Positions 16,236 to 19,802 of a stretch of DNA of 36,855 nucleotides are shown here, one piece after another; the stretch's first letter is position 1; every line of letters begins with the position of its first letter. The notes beneath the pieces were generated by a model. That model was not told the origin of the DNA, did not search any database, and worked only from the letters and a program-made list of their open reading frames with translations. The position numbers and the translations under genes were made by a program. Source of the DNA: Sutterella wadsworthensis 2_1_59BFAA (GTDB lineage Bacteria > Pseudomonadota > Gammaproteobacteria > Burkholderiales > Burkholderiaceae_F); the NCBI RefSeq assembly GCF_000297775.1, contig NZ_JH815513.1:136425-173279 (forward strand), read 5' to 3'.

Positions 16236-17312
16236 TCAGAGGCGTTCGTTCTCAAAGACCCTGACCGGGACGTTCCAGGGGCCGAAGCCGAGTTCGTCCA
16301 TCAGATCGATCATGTCGTCCTCGGGCGGCACGAACCACTCCATGTACTCGCCCGTGACCGGATGGTCGAGGCCGAGGCGGGAGGCATGCAGCGCCTGGCG
16401 GTGGAAGTCGAGCTCGTTCTCGACCTTGACCGTGAGGCCGGGCGCGCGGCCGCGGTAGACCTGGTCGCCGATGAGCGGCAGGTCCTCGCTCGTGAGGTGG
16501 ACGCGGATCTGGTGCGTGCGGCCCGTGTCGAGGCGGCAGGCGACCCAGGAGACGGGCAGGCCCTCGATGGAGCTCCAGCCCACGCAGCGGGCACGAGTGC
16601 GTGCCGGCTTGGCGCGCACGCCCGTGCTGCCGGGGAAGCACTTGAAGCGGGTGCGGCTGCGCGGATCGCGGCCGATCGGCGTCTCGACGACGAAGTCGGG
16701 CGCGGCGGAGCCGAGCGTGAAGGCCCAGTACTCGCGCTTGACGGTGCGCTCCTGAAGCTGGCGCACGAGGTTCGTCTGGGCGGCAAGCGTGCGGGCGACG
16801 ACCATGAGGCCGGTCGTGTCGCGGTCGAGGCGGTGGACGATGCCCGCACGGGGCACCTCGCGGAGCTCGGGATAGCGCCACAGCAGGCCGTTGAGCAGCG
16901 TGCCGCAGGGGTTGCCCGCGCCCGGATGCACGACGAGACCGGCGGGCTTGTTGACGACGACGATCGCATCGTCCTCGTAGACCACGTCGAACTCCACGTC
17001 CTCCTCGGGCGTGAAGGCGAGCGCCTCGTCAAGATGGGGCTCCTCGAGCAGCGAGATCTCGTCGCCCTCGGTGACCTTCTGGCGCACCTTCTGGACGACC
17101 TCGCCGTTCACCTCGACGCTTCCCTCCTCGATGAGCTTCTGCAGACGAGCTCGGGAAACATCGGGCATCAGGGTGGCGAGAACCTTGTCAAGGCGTTCTC
17201 CCCAGAACCCTTCCACCGTGAAACTTGGTAAAGTGTCATCATCGGCGCCGTTCCCGGCATCGGGGAGGTCGTTATAATCCGAAAGTTCAGAATTTTCGCA
17301 ACTGCTTGTCAT
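16236..17312 (-). CDS. rluD: 23S rRNA pseudouridine synthase RluD
   Basis: Makes pseudouridines 1911, 1915 and 1917 in helix 69 of 23S rRNA. 358 residues from the ATG at 17312: an acidic N-terminal extension, an S4-like RNA-binding domain (about 32-95, with RLDKVLA and SRARLQKLIEEG), then the RsuA/RluA catalytic core with Asp163 in HRLDRDTTGLMVVA and the block DTGRTHQIRVH. The start overlaps that of bamD on the other strand (CATG), and the bamD -10 box lies inside its first codons. AGGAAA about 11 bases upstream is the only ribosome-binding candidate. A frame exists further upstream inside bamD but is unlikely. The rluD/bamD divergence and rluD-pgeF order are conserved. Confidence 0.93.
   Translation of the reverse strand: MTSSCENSELSDYNDLPDAGNGADDDTLPSFTVEGFWGERLDKVLATLMPDVSRARLQKLIEEGSVEVNGEVVQKVRQKVTEGDEISLLEEPHLDEALAFTPEEDVEFDVVYEDDAIVVVNKPAGLVVHPGAGNPCGTLLNGLLWRYPELREVPRAGIVHRLDRDTTGLMVVARTLAAQTNLVRQLQERTVKREYWAFTLGSAAPDFVVETPIGRDPRSRTRFKCFPGSTGVRAKPARTRARCVGWSSIEGLPVSWVACRLDTGRTHQIRVHLTSEDLPLIGDQVYRGRAPGLTVKVENELDFHRQALHASRLGLDHPVTGEYMEWFVPPEDDMIDLMDELGFGPWNVPVRVFENERL
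17273..17278 (+). promoter_or_regulatory. Consensus -10 box for bamD inside rluD
   Basis: A perfect TATAAT lies 33 bases before the bamD ATG, within the opening codons of rluD. The best -35 candidates (around 17250-17256) are poor. Confidence 0.5.
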
Positions 17313-18096
17313 GAATTTCAAGTTTCCTAATAAGCGCCTCGCCGCGAGGCTGATGGCCGTGACGGCCATCACGCTGGCGACCGCCTCCTGCTCCTGGCTC
17401 GAATCCCTCGACAAGGATCCGACGGCGGACTGGTCGGCCGACAAATTGTATACCGAGGCCCGAGCCGCTCTTGAAGAGAGCAACTGGACCGATGCAAAAG
17501 ACTATTACACCAAGCTCGAGGCTCGCTATCCGTTTGGAACCTATGCACAGCAGGCCCAGATCGAGCTGATCTACGCGAACTGGAAGGACGGCGACGCCGC
17601 CCAGGCCGTTCAGGGTGCGGACCGCTTCCTGCAGGCCTATCCGAACCACGCCAACAGCGACTACGTCATGTACCTGAAGGCGCTTGCGACCCTCAATGAA
17701 AACGACGGCTGGTTCGCGAAGCTCGCCGCGCAGGACCTTGCCGAGCGCGACGCCAATGCCGCCCAAGAAGCCTTCGACATCCTCAAGGAGCTCGCCCTGC
17801 GCTTCCCCGACAGCCGCTACGCGCCCGAAGCGCGCCGCCGCATGCACCAGCTCGTGCTGGCTCAGGCAAAGCATGAACTTGGAGTTGCAGAATACTACTA
17901 CGTTCGACACGCTTATGTCGCGGCCATCCAGCACGCGCAGCGAGTCGTGAGCGAATTCCAGAACACGCCCATGCGCGACGACGCTCTTGAGATCATCGCG
18001 AACTCCTACGACAAGCTTGAAATGCACGACCTCGCCGCCGACACGCGCAGGGTCCTCGAGCTCAACAAGGGCAAGACCGTCAAGGTCCGCCGCTGA
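17311..18096 (+). CDS. bamD: Outer membrane assembly lipoprotein BamD
   Basis: Essential lipoprotein of the BAM complex, which folds beta-barrels into the outer membrane; in Neisseria it is called ComL. 261 residues. A signal peptide ends in the lipobox ATASC, so Cys27 would be lipidated, and helical TPR-like repeats cover about 40-250 (LYTEARAALEESNWTDAKDYY, then LEARYPFGTYAQQAQ as successive segments). Length matches family members. There is no clear Shine-Dalgarno sequence before the ATG at 17311. Its start codon overlaps the divergent rluD start. A terminator follows 24 bases after the stop, so it is probably a single-gene unit. Confidence 0.96.
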   Translation: MNFKFPNKRLAARLMAVTAITLATASCSWLESLDKDPTADWSADKLYTEARAALEESNWTDAKDYYTKLEARYPFGTYAQQAQIELIYANWKDGDAAQAVQGADRFLQAYPNHANSDYVMYLKALATLNENDGWFAKLAAQDLAERDANAAQEAFDILKELALRFPDSRYAPEARRRMHQLVLAQAKHELGVAEYYYVRHAYVAAIQHAQRVVSEFQNTPMRDDALEIIANSYDKLEMHDLAADTRRVLELNKGKTVKVRR

Positions 18097-18120
18097 GTCG
18101 GGCTCTGATTTCCGCTCGCA

Positions 18121-18155
18121 AAGAGGAGGCTTCCTGAAGGAGGTCTCCTTTTTTT
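18121..18155 (+). terminator. Terminator of bamD
   Basis: AGGAG near 18124 pairs with CTCCT near 18145, with an inner CTTCCT/AGGAG-type alternative stem, and is followed by a run of T residues to 18155. It isolates bamD transcription from the promoter-like sites that start 20 bases later. Confidence 0.75.
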
Positions 18156-18174
18156 GTTTACCACCCTCCTTTTC

Positions 18175-18188
18175 TTGATCAGGATCAA
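18175..18188. promoter_or_regulatory. Perfect FNR-type palindrome
   Basis: TTGATCAGGATCAA fits the FNR/ANR consensus TTGAT-N4-ATCAA exactly and is extended by one more C/G pair on each side. It lies in the gap after the bamD terminator. Its centre is about 80 bases upstream of the start point predicted for the adjacent candidate small RNA, a class I activator distance. The only downstream unit it could serve on the plus strand is that RNA; on the minus strand it would point into the bamD terminator. Confidence 0.65.
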
Positions 18189-18225
18189 GTCAAGGACAAT
18201 CTCCTCGAAAAATTCCACAAACGAT

Positions 18226-18244
18226 ATTGAGAACCATTCTCAAT
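18226..18244. promoter_or_regulatory. Fur-type iron box
   Basis: Arms ATTGAGAA and TTCTCAAT around CCA give a 19-base palindrome. Against the 7-1-7 Fur motif (TGATAAT-N-ATTATCA) it matches 11 of 14 positions. It overlaps the proposed -35 of the promoter at 18227-18255, a position suited to iron-dependent repression. Confidence 0.6.
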
Positions 18245-18255
18245 TCATGCACAAT
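18227..18255 (+). promoter_or_regulatory. Probable promoter of the candidate small RNA
   Basis: TTGAGA (18227-18232, five of six consensus bases) and CACAAT (18250-18255, four of six) are spaced by 17 bases. The -35 lies within the Fur-type box, and an FNR-type box lies upstream. Confidence 0.4.
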
Positions 18256-18261
18256 ACATTC

Positions 18262-18431
18262 AACGACAGCGAAACGCCGCCGCCTCCATCCAAGGACAAC
18301 GGGGGTCGTCCGGAGCGGACGGCGAGGAAAGGAACCAAGCGCCTTCCCGCAAAGCGGGGCAATCTCCACCCGCACGCTGTTGGGGGTCTGAGAAGGGCCG
18401 GATGCGTGCAACGCGCATCCGGCCCTGTTTT
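18262..18431 (+). ncRNA. Candidate oxygen- and iron-responsive small RNA
   Basis: A ~170-base segment between a plausible promoter and a strong terminator, with no start codon followed by a credible frame. It contains stem-loops CGTCCG-GAG-CGGACG (18307-18321) and CCCGC-AAA-GCGGG (18346-18358), then the terminator stem. The unpaired 5' part contains CGCCTCC, complementary to Shine-Dalgarno sequences, as in base-pairing small RNAs. The ends are inferred from the promoter and terminator positions. No known RNA family was recognised. It could instead encode a very small unrecognised protein, but no ribosome-binding site was seen. Confidence 0.45.
18394..18431 (+). terminator. Strong terminator closing the candidate small RNA
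   Basis: AGGGCCGGATGCG (18394-18406) pairs perfectly with CGCATCCGGCCCT (18414-18426) across a 7-base loop, followed by GTTTTT on the plus strand. No annotated plus-strand gene ends here. It might also act for the minus-strand transporter gene, but the T-run there is poor. Confidence 0.85.
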
Positions 18432-18485
18432 TATCCTGCTCTCGTGCAGAAGGCACCCTGCTGTGAGCGCCCTGCTGCGGGCGTC

Positions 18486-19802
18486 CTACTTTGAGAGCCT
18501 TGCGGCCACCTCGGCGCCGCGCTTCATGCTCACAGGCGCGAGCGCCAGAAGGGAGAGCACGAAGAAGAGGCCCGTGAAGAGGATGGCCATCCTGTGGTCG
18601 TTGCCGGTGATCCAGGTGATGGCGCCGTAGGAAAGCGGGCCGACGATGGCAGCAAGCCACAGCGCCATGTTCCAGAAGCTGTAGAACTCGGCCAGGCGCG
18701 AGCTCGGCGCGAAGACCGCGACCATGGCTCGGCCTGCGGACTGGGACGAGCCCATGGCGAGGCCCGCGAGATTGGCGGCGACCCAGAACTGCCAGCGCTC
18801 GGTCGAGAAGGCGGCGACGGCGATCATCGCGATCCAGACGCAGAGCGTGCCCGCGAGCGCGAGCTTGTGGCCGATGCGGTCCTGCACGTAGCCGAAGGCG
18901 AAGGCGCCGACGGCGGCCGTGATGTTCACGAGGAAGACCATGAGGAGCGTGTCCTCGGTCTTGAACCCCATGACGGCGGCGGCATAGACGGCCGAGAGCG
19001 TGATGACGACGGAGACGCCGCACTGATAGAGGAACCCGCAGACGGAAAGCCAGGCAAAGTCGCGGAAGTCGCCGAGCGAGCCGAGCGTGCGGCGCAGCTC
19101 CGCAAAGCTCTCCGAGGCGGCGCTCCTGACGGCCTCGCGGTCCGCAGCATCAAGACGCGGCACGCTCCTCTCCTTGAGGAAGAGGAAGATCGGAAGCGCG
19201 GCGGCCGCGAAGACGAAGGCCGTCACGGCCATCGTGCCCGCCACGGTCTGGTCCATCCCGTAGCCGAGCTTCTCGCCGCCGAGCACCACGCCCAGACAGA
19301 GGCCGAGCGTAAGGATGCCGCCGCAGTAGCCGAAGCTCCAGCCCCAGCCCGAAACCTTGCCCACGGCGTCCTCACGGGCGAGCTCGGGCAGGAAGGCCGA
19401 GTTGAGGGACTCGCCCACGTTGTAGGCGACGTTGCTCACGATGATCATGAGGGAGGCCCAGACGATCGTGCCCGGTCCCGCGAACATGAGGCCGAGCGTG
19501 CCGCCCACGGCCATGAAGGTCGCGACGGCGAGCCAGCGCTTCTTCGTGGCGGTCGCGTCGGCCACCGTGCCGATGACGGGCATCAGCAGCATGCTCACCG
19601 CATTGCTCACCGCGATGACGACGGTCCAGAGGAACGTCGCCGAGGGGGCGTCGCCCGCCACCACGCTCACGAAGTAGGCGTTGAAGACGGCCGTGAGCAC
19701 CACGGTCGTGTAGCCCGAATTGGCAAAGTCGAATGCGGCCCAGGACCAGACCTCGCGCATCGCGACGCCGTCCTTGAGAGCGGACCGGGAGAAAAACGGC
19801 AT
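18486..19802 (-). CDS. UMF1/Atg22-type major facilitator transporter
   Basis: 438 residues with about twelve membrane helices. The opening WSWAAFDFANSGYTTVVL is the hallmark of the unknown major facilitator (UMF1, Atg22-like) family, whose fungal members export amino acids from vacuoles; bacterial substrates are mostly unknown. Helix-2/3 loop VIGTVADATATKKRW is an MFS motif-A variant. AAGGAGG just before the ATG overlaps the stop region of the upstream gene (13-base gap), so the two are co-transcribed and probably coupled. A transport role for a product or substrate of the neighbouring deacetylase-like hydrolase is an inference. Confidence 0.85.
   Translation of the reverse strand: MPFFSRSALKDGVAMREVWSWAAFDFANSGYTTVVLTAVFNAYFVSVVAGDAPSATFLWTVVIAVSNAVSMLLMPVIGTVADATATKKRWLAVATFMAVGGTLGLMFAGPGTIVWASLMIIVSNVAYNVGESLNSAFLPELAREDAVGKVSGWGWSFGYCGGILTLGLCLGVVLGGEKLGYGMDQTVAGTMAVTAFVFAAAALPIFLFLKERSVPRLDAADREAVRSAASESFAELRRTLGSLGDFRDFAWLSVCGFLYQCGVSVVITLSAVYAAAVMGFKTEDTLLMVFLVNITAAVGAFAFGYVQDRIGHKLALAGTLCVWIAMIAVAAFSTERWQFWVAANLAGLAMGSSQSAGRAMVAVFAPSSRLAEFYSFWNMALWLAAIVGPLSYGAITWITGNDHRMAILFTGLFFVLSLLALAPVSMKRGAEVAARLSK

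Follow-up and report, generated by a model that had tools for sequence, protein, structure and literature searches.

The segment 18175–18431 of the window, that is, the whole stretch of 36,855 nucleotides of Sutterella wadsworthensis DNA that was analyzed, was found to be one of three copies of a predicted sRNA gene family in its own genome (C1, C5 and C7). Judging from its sequence, the locus is very likely an sRNA gene. Outside the unit, bamD lies upstream on the plus strand at 17311..18096 (NCBIfam TIGR03302 OM_YfiO, 238.5 bits at a cut-off of 81.4) and is followed by a terminator-like stem-loop on the same strand (18120..18153). An MFS-like transporter gene, for which the family matches were weak and below cut-off, lies downstream on the minus strand at 18486..19802, also outside the unit. 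It had been stated in the initial annotation that no plus-strand gene accounts for the terminator and the regulator sites. This was borne out, because a terminator-like stem closes bamD and the MFS-like transporter gene runs toward the unit. The proposed link to bamD was rejected, as the sRNA was present at 0 of the 6 relatives' bamD loci compared and the position beside bamD is peculiar to the window species. The C5 copy of the same genome sits between the genes of a NarQ/NarX-like sensor kinase and argD.

The unit begins on the plus strand with the FNR-type box TTGATCAGGATCAA at 18175..18188. This palindrome was exact, as had been claimed, and was the sole perfect TTGATN4ATCAA of the window, where FNR-type matches with at most one mismatch numbered 3 compared with a mean of 0.41 expected. 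Another FNR-type site, TTGACAACCATCAA, was noticed at 468–481 of the window. In the 2.72 Mb genome, TTGAYN4RTCAA occurred at 26 places and the backwards pattern at 2. The center of the box was located at about −80.5 from the predicted start, in agreement with the class I distance of about 80 bases given previously, and an FNR-type box was also found in 7 further copies.

The −35 element TTGAGA (18227..18232, plus strand) is spanned by an inverted repeat at 18226..18244, ATTGAGAA-CCA-TTCTCAAT, which confirmed the Fur-type palindrome described earlier; a related palindrome was present in 27 of 27 copies. No match to the E. coli Fur consensus was found in the window palindrome within 3 mismatches. 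Perfect matches to TTGMRAAYNRTTCTCA numbered just four in the genome, and three belonged to copies of this sRNA. The fourth perfect Fur-type palindrome (L140, ~1501; G000:C7:72762) was observed between the genes of a MarR-like regulator and a ZIP-like transporter, both named from translations. The −10 element CACAAT was located at 18250..18255 on the plus strand, at the 17-base spacing noted before. The predicted promoter matched the consensus at 9 of 12 positions, and 1 such promoter was found compared with a mean of 0.2 in shuffles. A predicted Fur site is placed at the sRNA's own promoter by its overlap with the −35 element.

The predicted sRNA of ~170 nt occupies 18262..18432 of the plus strand, its start being inferred from the −10 element. 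The predicted fold of 18262–18431 had an energy of −85.2 kcal/mol (z −4.1), and 0 of 200 shuffles were as good. On the plus strand, a closing stem is formed by the arms CGACAGCG (18264..18271) and CGCTGTTG (18375..18382). It encloses GGGGGTC (18301..18307), the conserved loop motif of the second hairpin, with which a rival hairpin competes in the window copy (unpaired probability 0.37), and the anti-Shine-Dalgarno motif TCTCC (18363..18367; unpaired probability 0.99). The 3' pairing motif GGGGTCTG follows at 18383..18390, and the intrinsic terminator lies at 18394..18431, both on the plus strand. The terminator and its T-run were present as annotated, its stem having 15 pairs instead of the 13 claimed. 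Both short perfect inverted repeats of the initial annotation (CGTCCG-GAG-CGGACG and CCCGC-AAA-GCGGG) exist in the sequence, and only the first forms in the fold. The CCTCC stretch (18283–18287), described as unstructured, had 3 of its 5 bases paired in the predicted fold. It was not kept in relatives, and its use as a target seed was rejected for this lack of conservation among the copies.

No match at gathering level was obtained with Rfam anywhere in the window, and a search of 18100–18500 at E up to 10 returned just weak eukaryotic or plastid families. The window sRNA was not matched by the covariance models of RyhB, PrrF, NrrF and FnrS, which we take to be families present in Rfam.

The family was searched for by several approaches. 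Comparison of the window stretch with 61 relatives gave one clear second copy, C5 in the same genome (75% identity, E 4.8e-27); the remaining matches were mostly short, and one of them (G005) was a distant copy. A pattern of a Fur half-site, GGGGTCT and a T-run was found in 7 of the 12 genomes of the genus, with 0 matches for the backwards control. A looser pattern, applied to 67 genomes of the taxonomic family, was positive in 9 of the 12 genomes belonging to the genus of the window and in 8 of 10 belonging to one other genus (backwards control, 0). Hence, 17 of 67 genomes were positive, all in two genera. The total of 27 copies comprises the loose-pattern matches minus one coding match (G075:C8) plus C5, which that pattern missed. 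Among 399 genomes of the order, a sample holding a single genome of the window's genus, a Fur palindrome with GGGGTC occurred in 5, each belonging to one of two genera within the family of the window (control, 0). Absence in other genomes means absence of these exact patterns. The pattern matches in G075:C8, G085 and G003 were dropped, being taken as chance matches in coding-like DNA.

When the genomes were searched, a covariance model built from four copies (R1) recovered these four, together with two true paralogues and a match in G003 (L063). The latter was rejected, since it reads like coding DNA. The copies of the window, C5 and G002 were not detected by the model at E up to 1. A MAFFT alignment of the copies put the closing stem in the wrong place, and therefore consensus folding on that alignment was not used.

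Since the Fur palindrome and the GGGGUC loop belonged to the search pattern, their presence in all copies is partly by construction. Of the 27 palindromes, those of C5 (found by similarity) and of two copies found by the covariance model, which covers the transcript alone, were obtained independently of the pattern. The closing stem, UCUCC, the terminator and the FNR box were outside the loose pattern. A closing stem of 7–16 bp was present in 26 of 27 copies with arms that differ in sequence between copies, the 27th copy (G068:C15) having just 106 nt of sequence. Stems are thus kept while the sequence changes. UCUCC was found in 27/27 copies with an unpaired probability of at least 0.68 at one place or more. 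The GGGGUC loop was unpaired with a probability of at least 0.67 in 25 of 26 copies, the window copy being the exception; C5 has GGGGGC in its place. Every full-length copy ends in its own terminator.

End-to-end helices of 5–13 pairs were predicted in 24 of the 26 copies measured, compared with shuffle means of 1.5–3.9; for this count G068:C15 was excluded and G008a had been cut at the wrong place. The helices of single copies were often equaled by some shuffles, and 3 of 26 were equaled by 0 of 60. GGGGUCU stood directly 3' of the closing stem in 8/8 FNR-bearing copies. This motif was required by the pattern that detected 7 of 12 genomes and not by the loose pattern, and the latter found no extra FNR-bearing copy.

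Further, the copies fell into two promoter classes. The box TTGAYN4RTCAA, which was part of no search pattern used to find the copies, was present in 8 of 27 copies from seven species (G000:C1, G000:C5, G002, G004, G006, G007, G008 and G010). The other 19 contained no TTGAN6TCAA within 110 bases upstream and had the Fur site only. From the 26 sites in 2.72 Mb, a chance match within 110 bases would be expected at about 1 per 950 promoters. The distance from box center to −35 start was 36.5 bases in one copy, 45.5 in two, 46.5 in two and 56.5 in three, steps of about one helical turn that put the boxes near −71, −81 and −91 relative to the predicted start (Rayleigh p ~0.0006 for the phasing, with relatedness ignored). 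The G002 and G010 copies have the same neighbors (an adk-like gene and an FAD oxidoreductase gene, from translations) at spacings one turn apart, and G008 shares neighbors with G006 and G007, yet its box spacing differs by one turn. It was therefore concluded that the phase was kept through spacing changes.

Several Fur-only copies (L088, L090, L095, L097, L100, L104, L107 and L114) have an A/T-rich stretch upstream of the Fur site. TACAAA or AACATTT-like words, seen by eye 15–50 bases before the Fur site, are possibly the site of another regulator. In G006, G007 and G008 (L152, L153 and L154), an FNR-bearing and a Fur-only copy lie ~3.2–3.7 kb apart with transporter-like genes between them. 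A 2Fe-2S/4Fe-4S enzyme gene follows the copy pair in G007, and GACCCC occurs in the leader of the homologue of this gene in G006 (L257). The copies examined in the other genus (G026, G070, G074 and G075; L161–L164) were near a queA-like gene (from translation), a stable place unlike that of the scattered Sutterella copies.

The genome encodes one protein above the HTH_Crp_2 cut-off. It has 255 aa, a CSNCNLREVC segment, later cysteines and the helix ETVSR, and its NCBIfam Fnr score was 214.6, below the cut-off of 228. An FNR-type box (L130; G000:C1:216002–216015) is located between fnr and a divergent hemN-like gene. Both kinds of site recur at the feoAB promoter (genes named from translation), where one FNR-type box accompanies two Fur-type sites (L143, 1381–1394 onward; G000:C3:154040–154175), matching the two predicted inputs of the sRNA. 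A predicted FNR site at an activating position of the sRNA promoter and a putative FNR protein are both present. Another FNR-type box of this genome (G000:C8:40747–40760; L178) precedes a molybdo-Fe4S4 enzyme gene by ~0.25 kb. A second CRP/FNR-like protein, L133, scored 22 bits, below the cut-off of 27; by reading, it has no N-terminal cysteine cluster and its helix is ETVSD, not ETVSR. FNR needs an iron-sulfur cluster, and therefore deep iron starvation could weaken the proposed gate.

According to the extracts of PMC3688515, FNR-activated promoters of E. coli are mostly class II (19 of 23), one site being at −60.5, and FNR activation of feoABC is masked by Fur repression. A study of anaerobic Fur in Salmonella reported 12 genes with both sites, and no sRNA was named among them in the extracts of that paper (PMC3212961).

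Candidate targets were sought through the two exposed motifs. GGGGUCU and UCUCC are complementary to AGACCCC and a GGAGA ribosome site, a combination that was unusually frequent in iron-protein leaders. GACCCC was present in the leaders of 6 of 18 (strictly 6 of 17) Molybdop_Fe4S4 genes from three species, compared with 1 of 114 genes from random stretches (p 1.8e-5); these stretches replaced a first control set that was too small (22 genes). The pattern GACCCC..GGAGA..ATG occurred at 93 places in 12 genomes and its backwards form at 22, an unfair control because GGAGA..ATG is a real ribosome site.

Two overlapping repeats and one antisense match of an sRNA copy were dropped from the 93 places, 5 molybdoenzymes were already included, and 85 genes were retrieved. 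Exclusion of 12 genes with frames under 75 aa left 73, which together with the 5 molybdoenzymes made 78 usable genes. By Pfam, 28 of the 78 were iron-related, with HypC counted as such: fumarase, aconitase, ferritin, CcmE, Fe4S4 proteins, hydrogenase-like proteins, HypC, cytochromes and molybdoenzymes. Fumarate-reductase-type flavoproteins accounted for 10, and 40 were neither, including lpxB (4), secD and secF. In the lpxB genes of four species (L216, L219, L242 and L290), GACCCC precedes a GGAGA ribosome site, though LpxB is not an iron protein. The 114 control genes were classed by sequence motifs alone, so that only the comparison using the same motif test on both sides, with iron-motif proteins in 14 of 73 genes compared with 1 of 114 (p 8.5e-6), sets like against like. 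Orthologues of close species (G004/G007 and G001/G009) entered these target counts separately.

The matches extended further in iron genes. Across the seven genomes that have an FNR-bearing copy, and with close orthologues counted singly, an A came next, able to pair with the final U of GGGGUCU, in 13 of 21 iron genes and in 7 of 29 others (p 0.008), and the eighth base fitted the species' own sRNA in 7 of 21 and 2 of 29, respectively (p 0.02). In the window species, CAGACCCC, the exact complement of the sRNA 3' motif GGGGUCUG, is found in the leaders of the three iron genes, which encode aconitase, a cytochrome c552-like protein and a molybdo-Fe4S4 enzyme, and is absent from the three other site-bearing genes. 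The predicted duplexes of the 3' motif with the three leaders had energies of −17.3 to −17.8 kcal/mol, these being chosen pairs and not a test.

Detection of an sRNA did not go with a higher number of GACCCC sites, a point against the proposed target code: there were 62 across the nine positive genomes and 31 across the three negative ones (G001, G003 and G009), and iron-related genes made up 21 of 52 and 7 of 26 usable genes, respectively. Either an sRNA copy was overlooked in these three genomes or the sites have another cause; we suspect that they carry an overlooked copy.

The phased FNR boxes, the Fur palindromes and the kept stems, all comparative evidence, argue for the joint control by FNR and Fur suggested in the initial annotation, which is likely. 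We proposed that the sRNA is a RyhB-like, trans-acting, iron-sparing sRNA with two pairing motifs and an AND gate for anaerobic and iron-poor conditions, and taken as a whole this statement is probably right. What the sequences show are the family, with its promoter sites, predicted fold and motifs, and an over-representation of complementary sites in leaders of iron proteins; transcription, FNR and Fur binding, pairing and repression are steps that we infer. Iron-bound Fur over the −35 element would block the promoter, and FNR, active without oxygen, would bind the phased class I site upstream and activate it. The sRNA would be produced when the cell is both anaerobic and short of iron. The RNA would have a closed multi-stem body, a loop of which displays UCUCC, and GGGGUCU would lie where this body meets the terminator. 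In iron-protein mRNAs, GGGGUCU would pair with the AGACCCC that immediately precedes the ribosome site, and UCUCC with the GGAGA Shine-Dalgarno sequence of the same mRNAs. Less aconitase, fumarase, cytochromes and molybdo-Fe4S4 enzymes would then be translated, and iron would be spared. A paralogue that lacks the FNR box would respond in the same way irrespective of oxygen.

Other explanations were considered. An iron-sparing sRNA controlled by Fur, with the upstream palindrome idle or bound by another regulator of the CRP/FNR type and with oxygen as no input, would suit the 19 of 27 copies without an FNR-type box and the existence of the sub-threshold L133 protein. It would also suit the extracts of PMC3688515, in which class I activation by FNR is the minority case in E. 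coli. We considered this unlikely, since the box recurs in 8 copies at phased distances, the same box is found between fnr and the hemN-like gene and at feoAB, and L133 is without the cysteine cluster and the ETVSR helix. It would be more improbable still that an sRNA under FNR and Fur acts otherwise, e.g., by binding a protein via repeated GGGGUC, the iron-gene sites then arising from the composition of the leaders. The GGGGUC motif is repeated and identical in position, a feature also of RNAs that titrate proteins (CsrB, for example), and similar sites occur in genomes without a detected sRNA; however, complementary sites are more frequent in iron-protein leaders than in random genes, and further matching bases (next base A) were more frequent in iron genes.

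That no independent sRNA exists, the unit being the leader of a neighboring gene or a small protein gene, is hardly credible. The next gene is co-directional after the terminator in G002 and G010, and a 54-codon TTG frame (18227–18391) overlaps the window copy. Nevertheless, the downstream gene is convergent in the window and at G000:C5, each full-length copy has a terminator of its own, stems and loops are kept while length and sequence drift, and the neighbors vary between species.

The AND-gated, iron-sparing sRNA preferred here was compared with known systems. FnrS of enterobacteria is alike as an FNR-activated sRNA; it represses genes of aerobic life, and we know of no Fur input to it. 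RyhB of E. coli and PrrF1/PrrF2 of Pseudomonas, described in part in the extracts of PMC7377471, are alike in the Fur site at their own promoter and in the repression, predicted here, of iron-protein mRNAs such as those of aconitase and fumarase, and PrrF has sibling copies like the Sutterella family. They differ in that no sequence relation was found (no Rfam match), the Sutterella sRNA having a G-rich seed and an anti-Shine-Dalgarno loop, and the FNR-type box belongs to the 8 Sutterella copies. BrrF of Burkholderia cenocepacia, from the same order, is induced at low iron through Fur and acts on TCA and oxidative-stress genes, and a run of G is the part mutated in experiments; according to the same extracts, it differs by being cut from the hemP mRNA without its own promoter or Fur box (PMC7377471). 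The window sRNA has a predicted promoter and terminator of its own, and its neighbors are bamD and the MFS-like gene, with no hemP.

IsrR of Staphylococcus is similar in its repression by Fur, in its several single-stranded motifs and in blocking translation of the anaerobic nitrate-respiration enzymes fdhA, narG and nasD. It differs in its C-rich motifs and Gram-positive host, and an FNR input is not mentioned in the extracts of the paper (PMC9410917). The feoABC operon of E. coli follows the same FNR/Fur logic, but the promoter drives a ferrous iron transporter and not an sRNA (extracts of PMC3688515). Among the open-license papers listed, no sRNA under both FNR and Fur and no Fur-controlled sRNA of Sutterella were found. 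The search covered open-license papers only, and therefore this is no proof of novelty.

We are inclined to regard these genes as an iron-sparing sRNA family of Sutterella's own, with no sequence kinship to RyhB, PrrF or BrrF, that reads an AGACCCC-GGAGA leader code. It may have been split by duplication into oxygen-blind Fur-only forms and AND-gated FNR and Fur forms, the latter sharing the logic of the feo promoter, with the code lying in the leaders of anaerobic respiratory iron enzymes. If true, this would show iron rationing in a gut bacterium living by anaerobic respiration with iron-sulfur and heme enzymes. The presence of the FNR box in some paralogues and not in others would offer a natural experiment on the addition of a second input to an sRNA promoter, and the exact code between seed and target would make the regulon directly testable.
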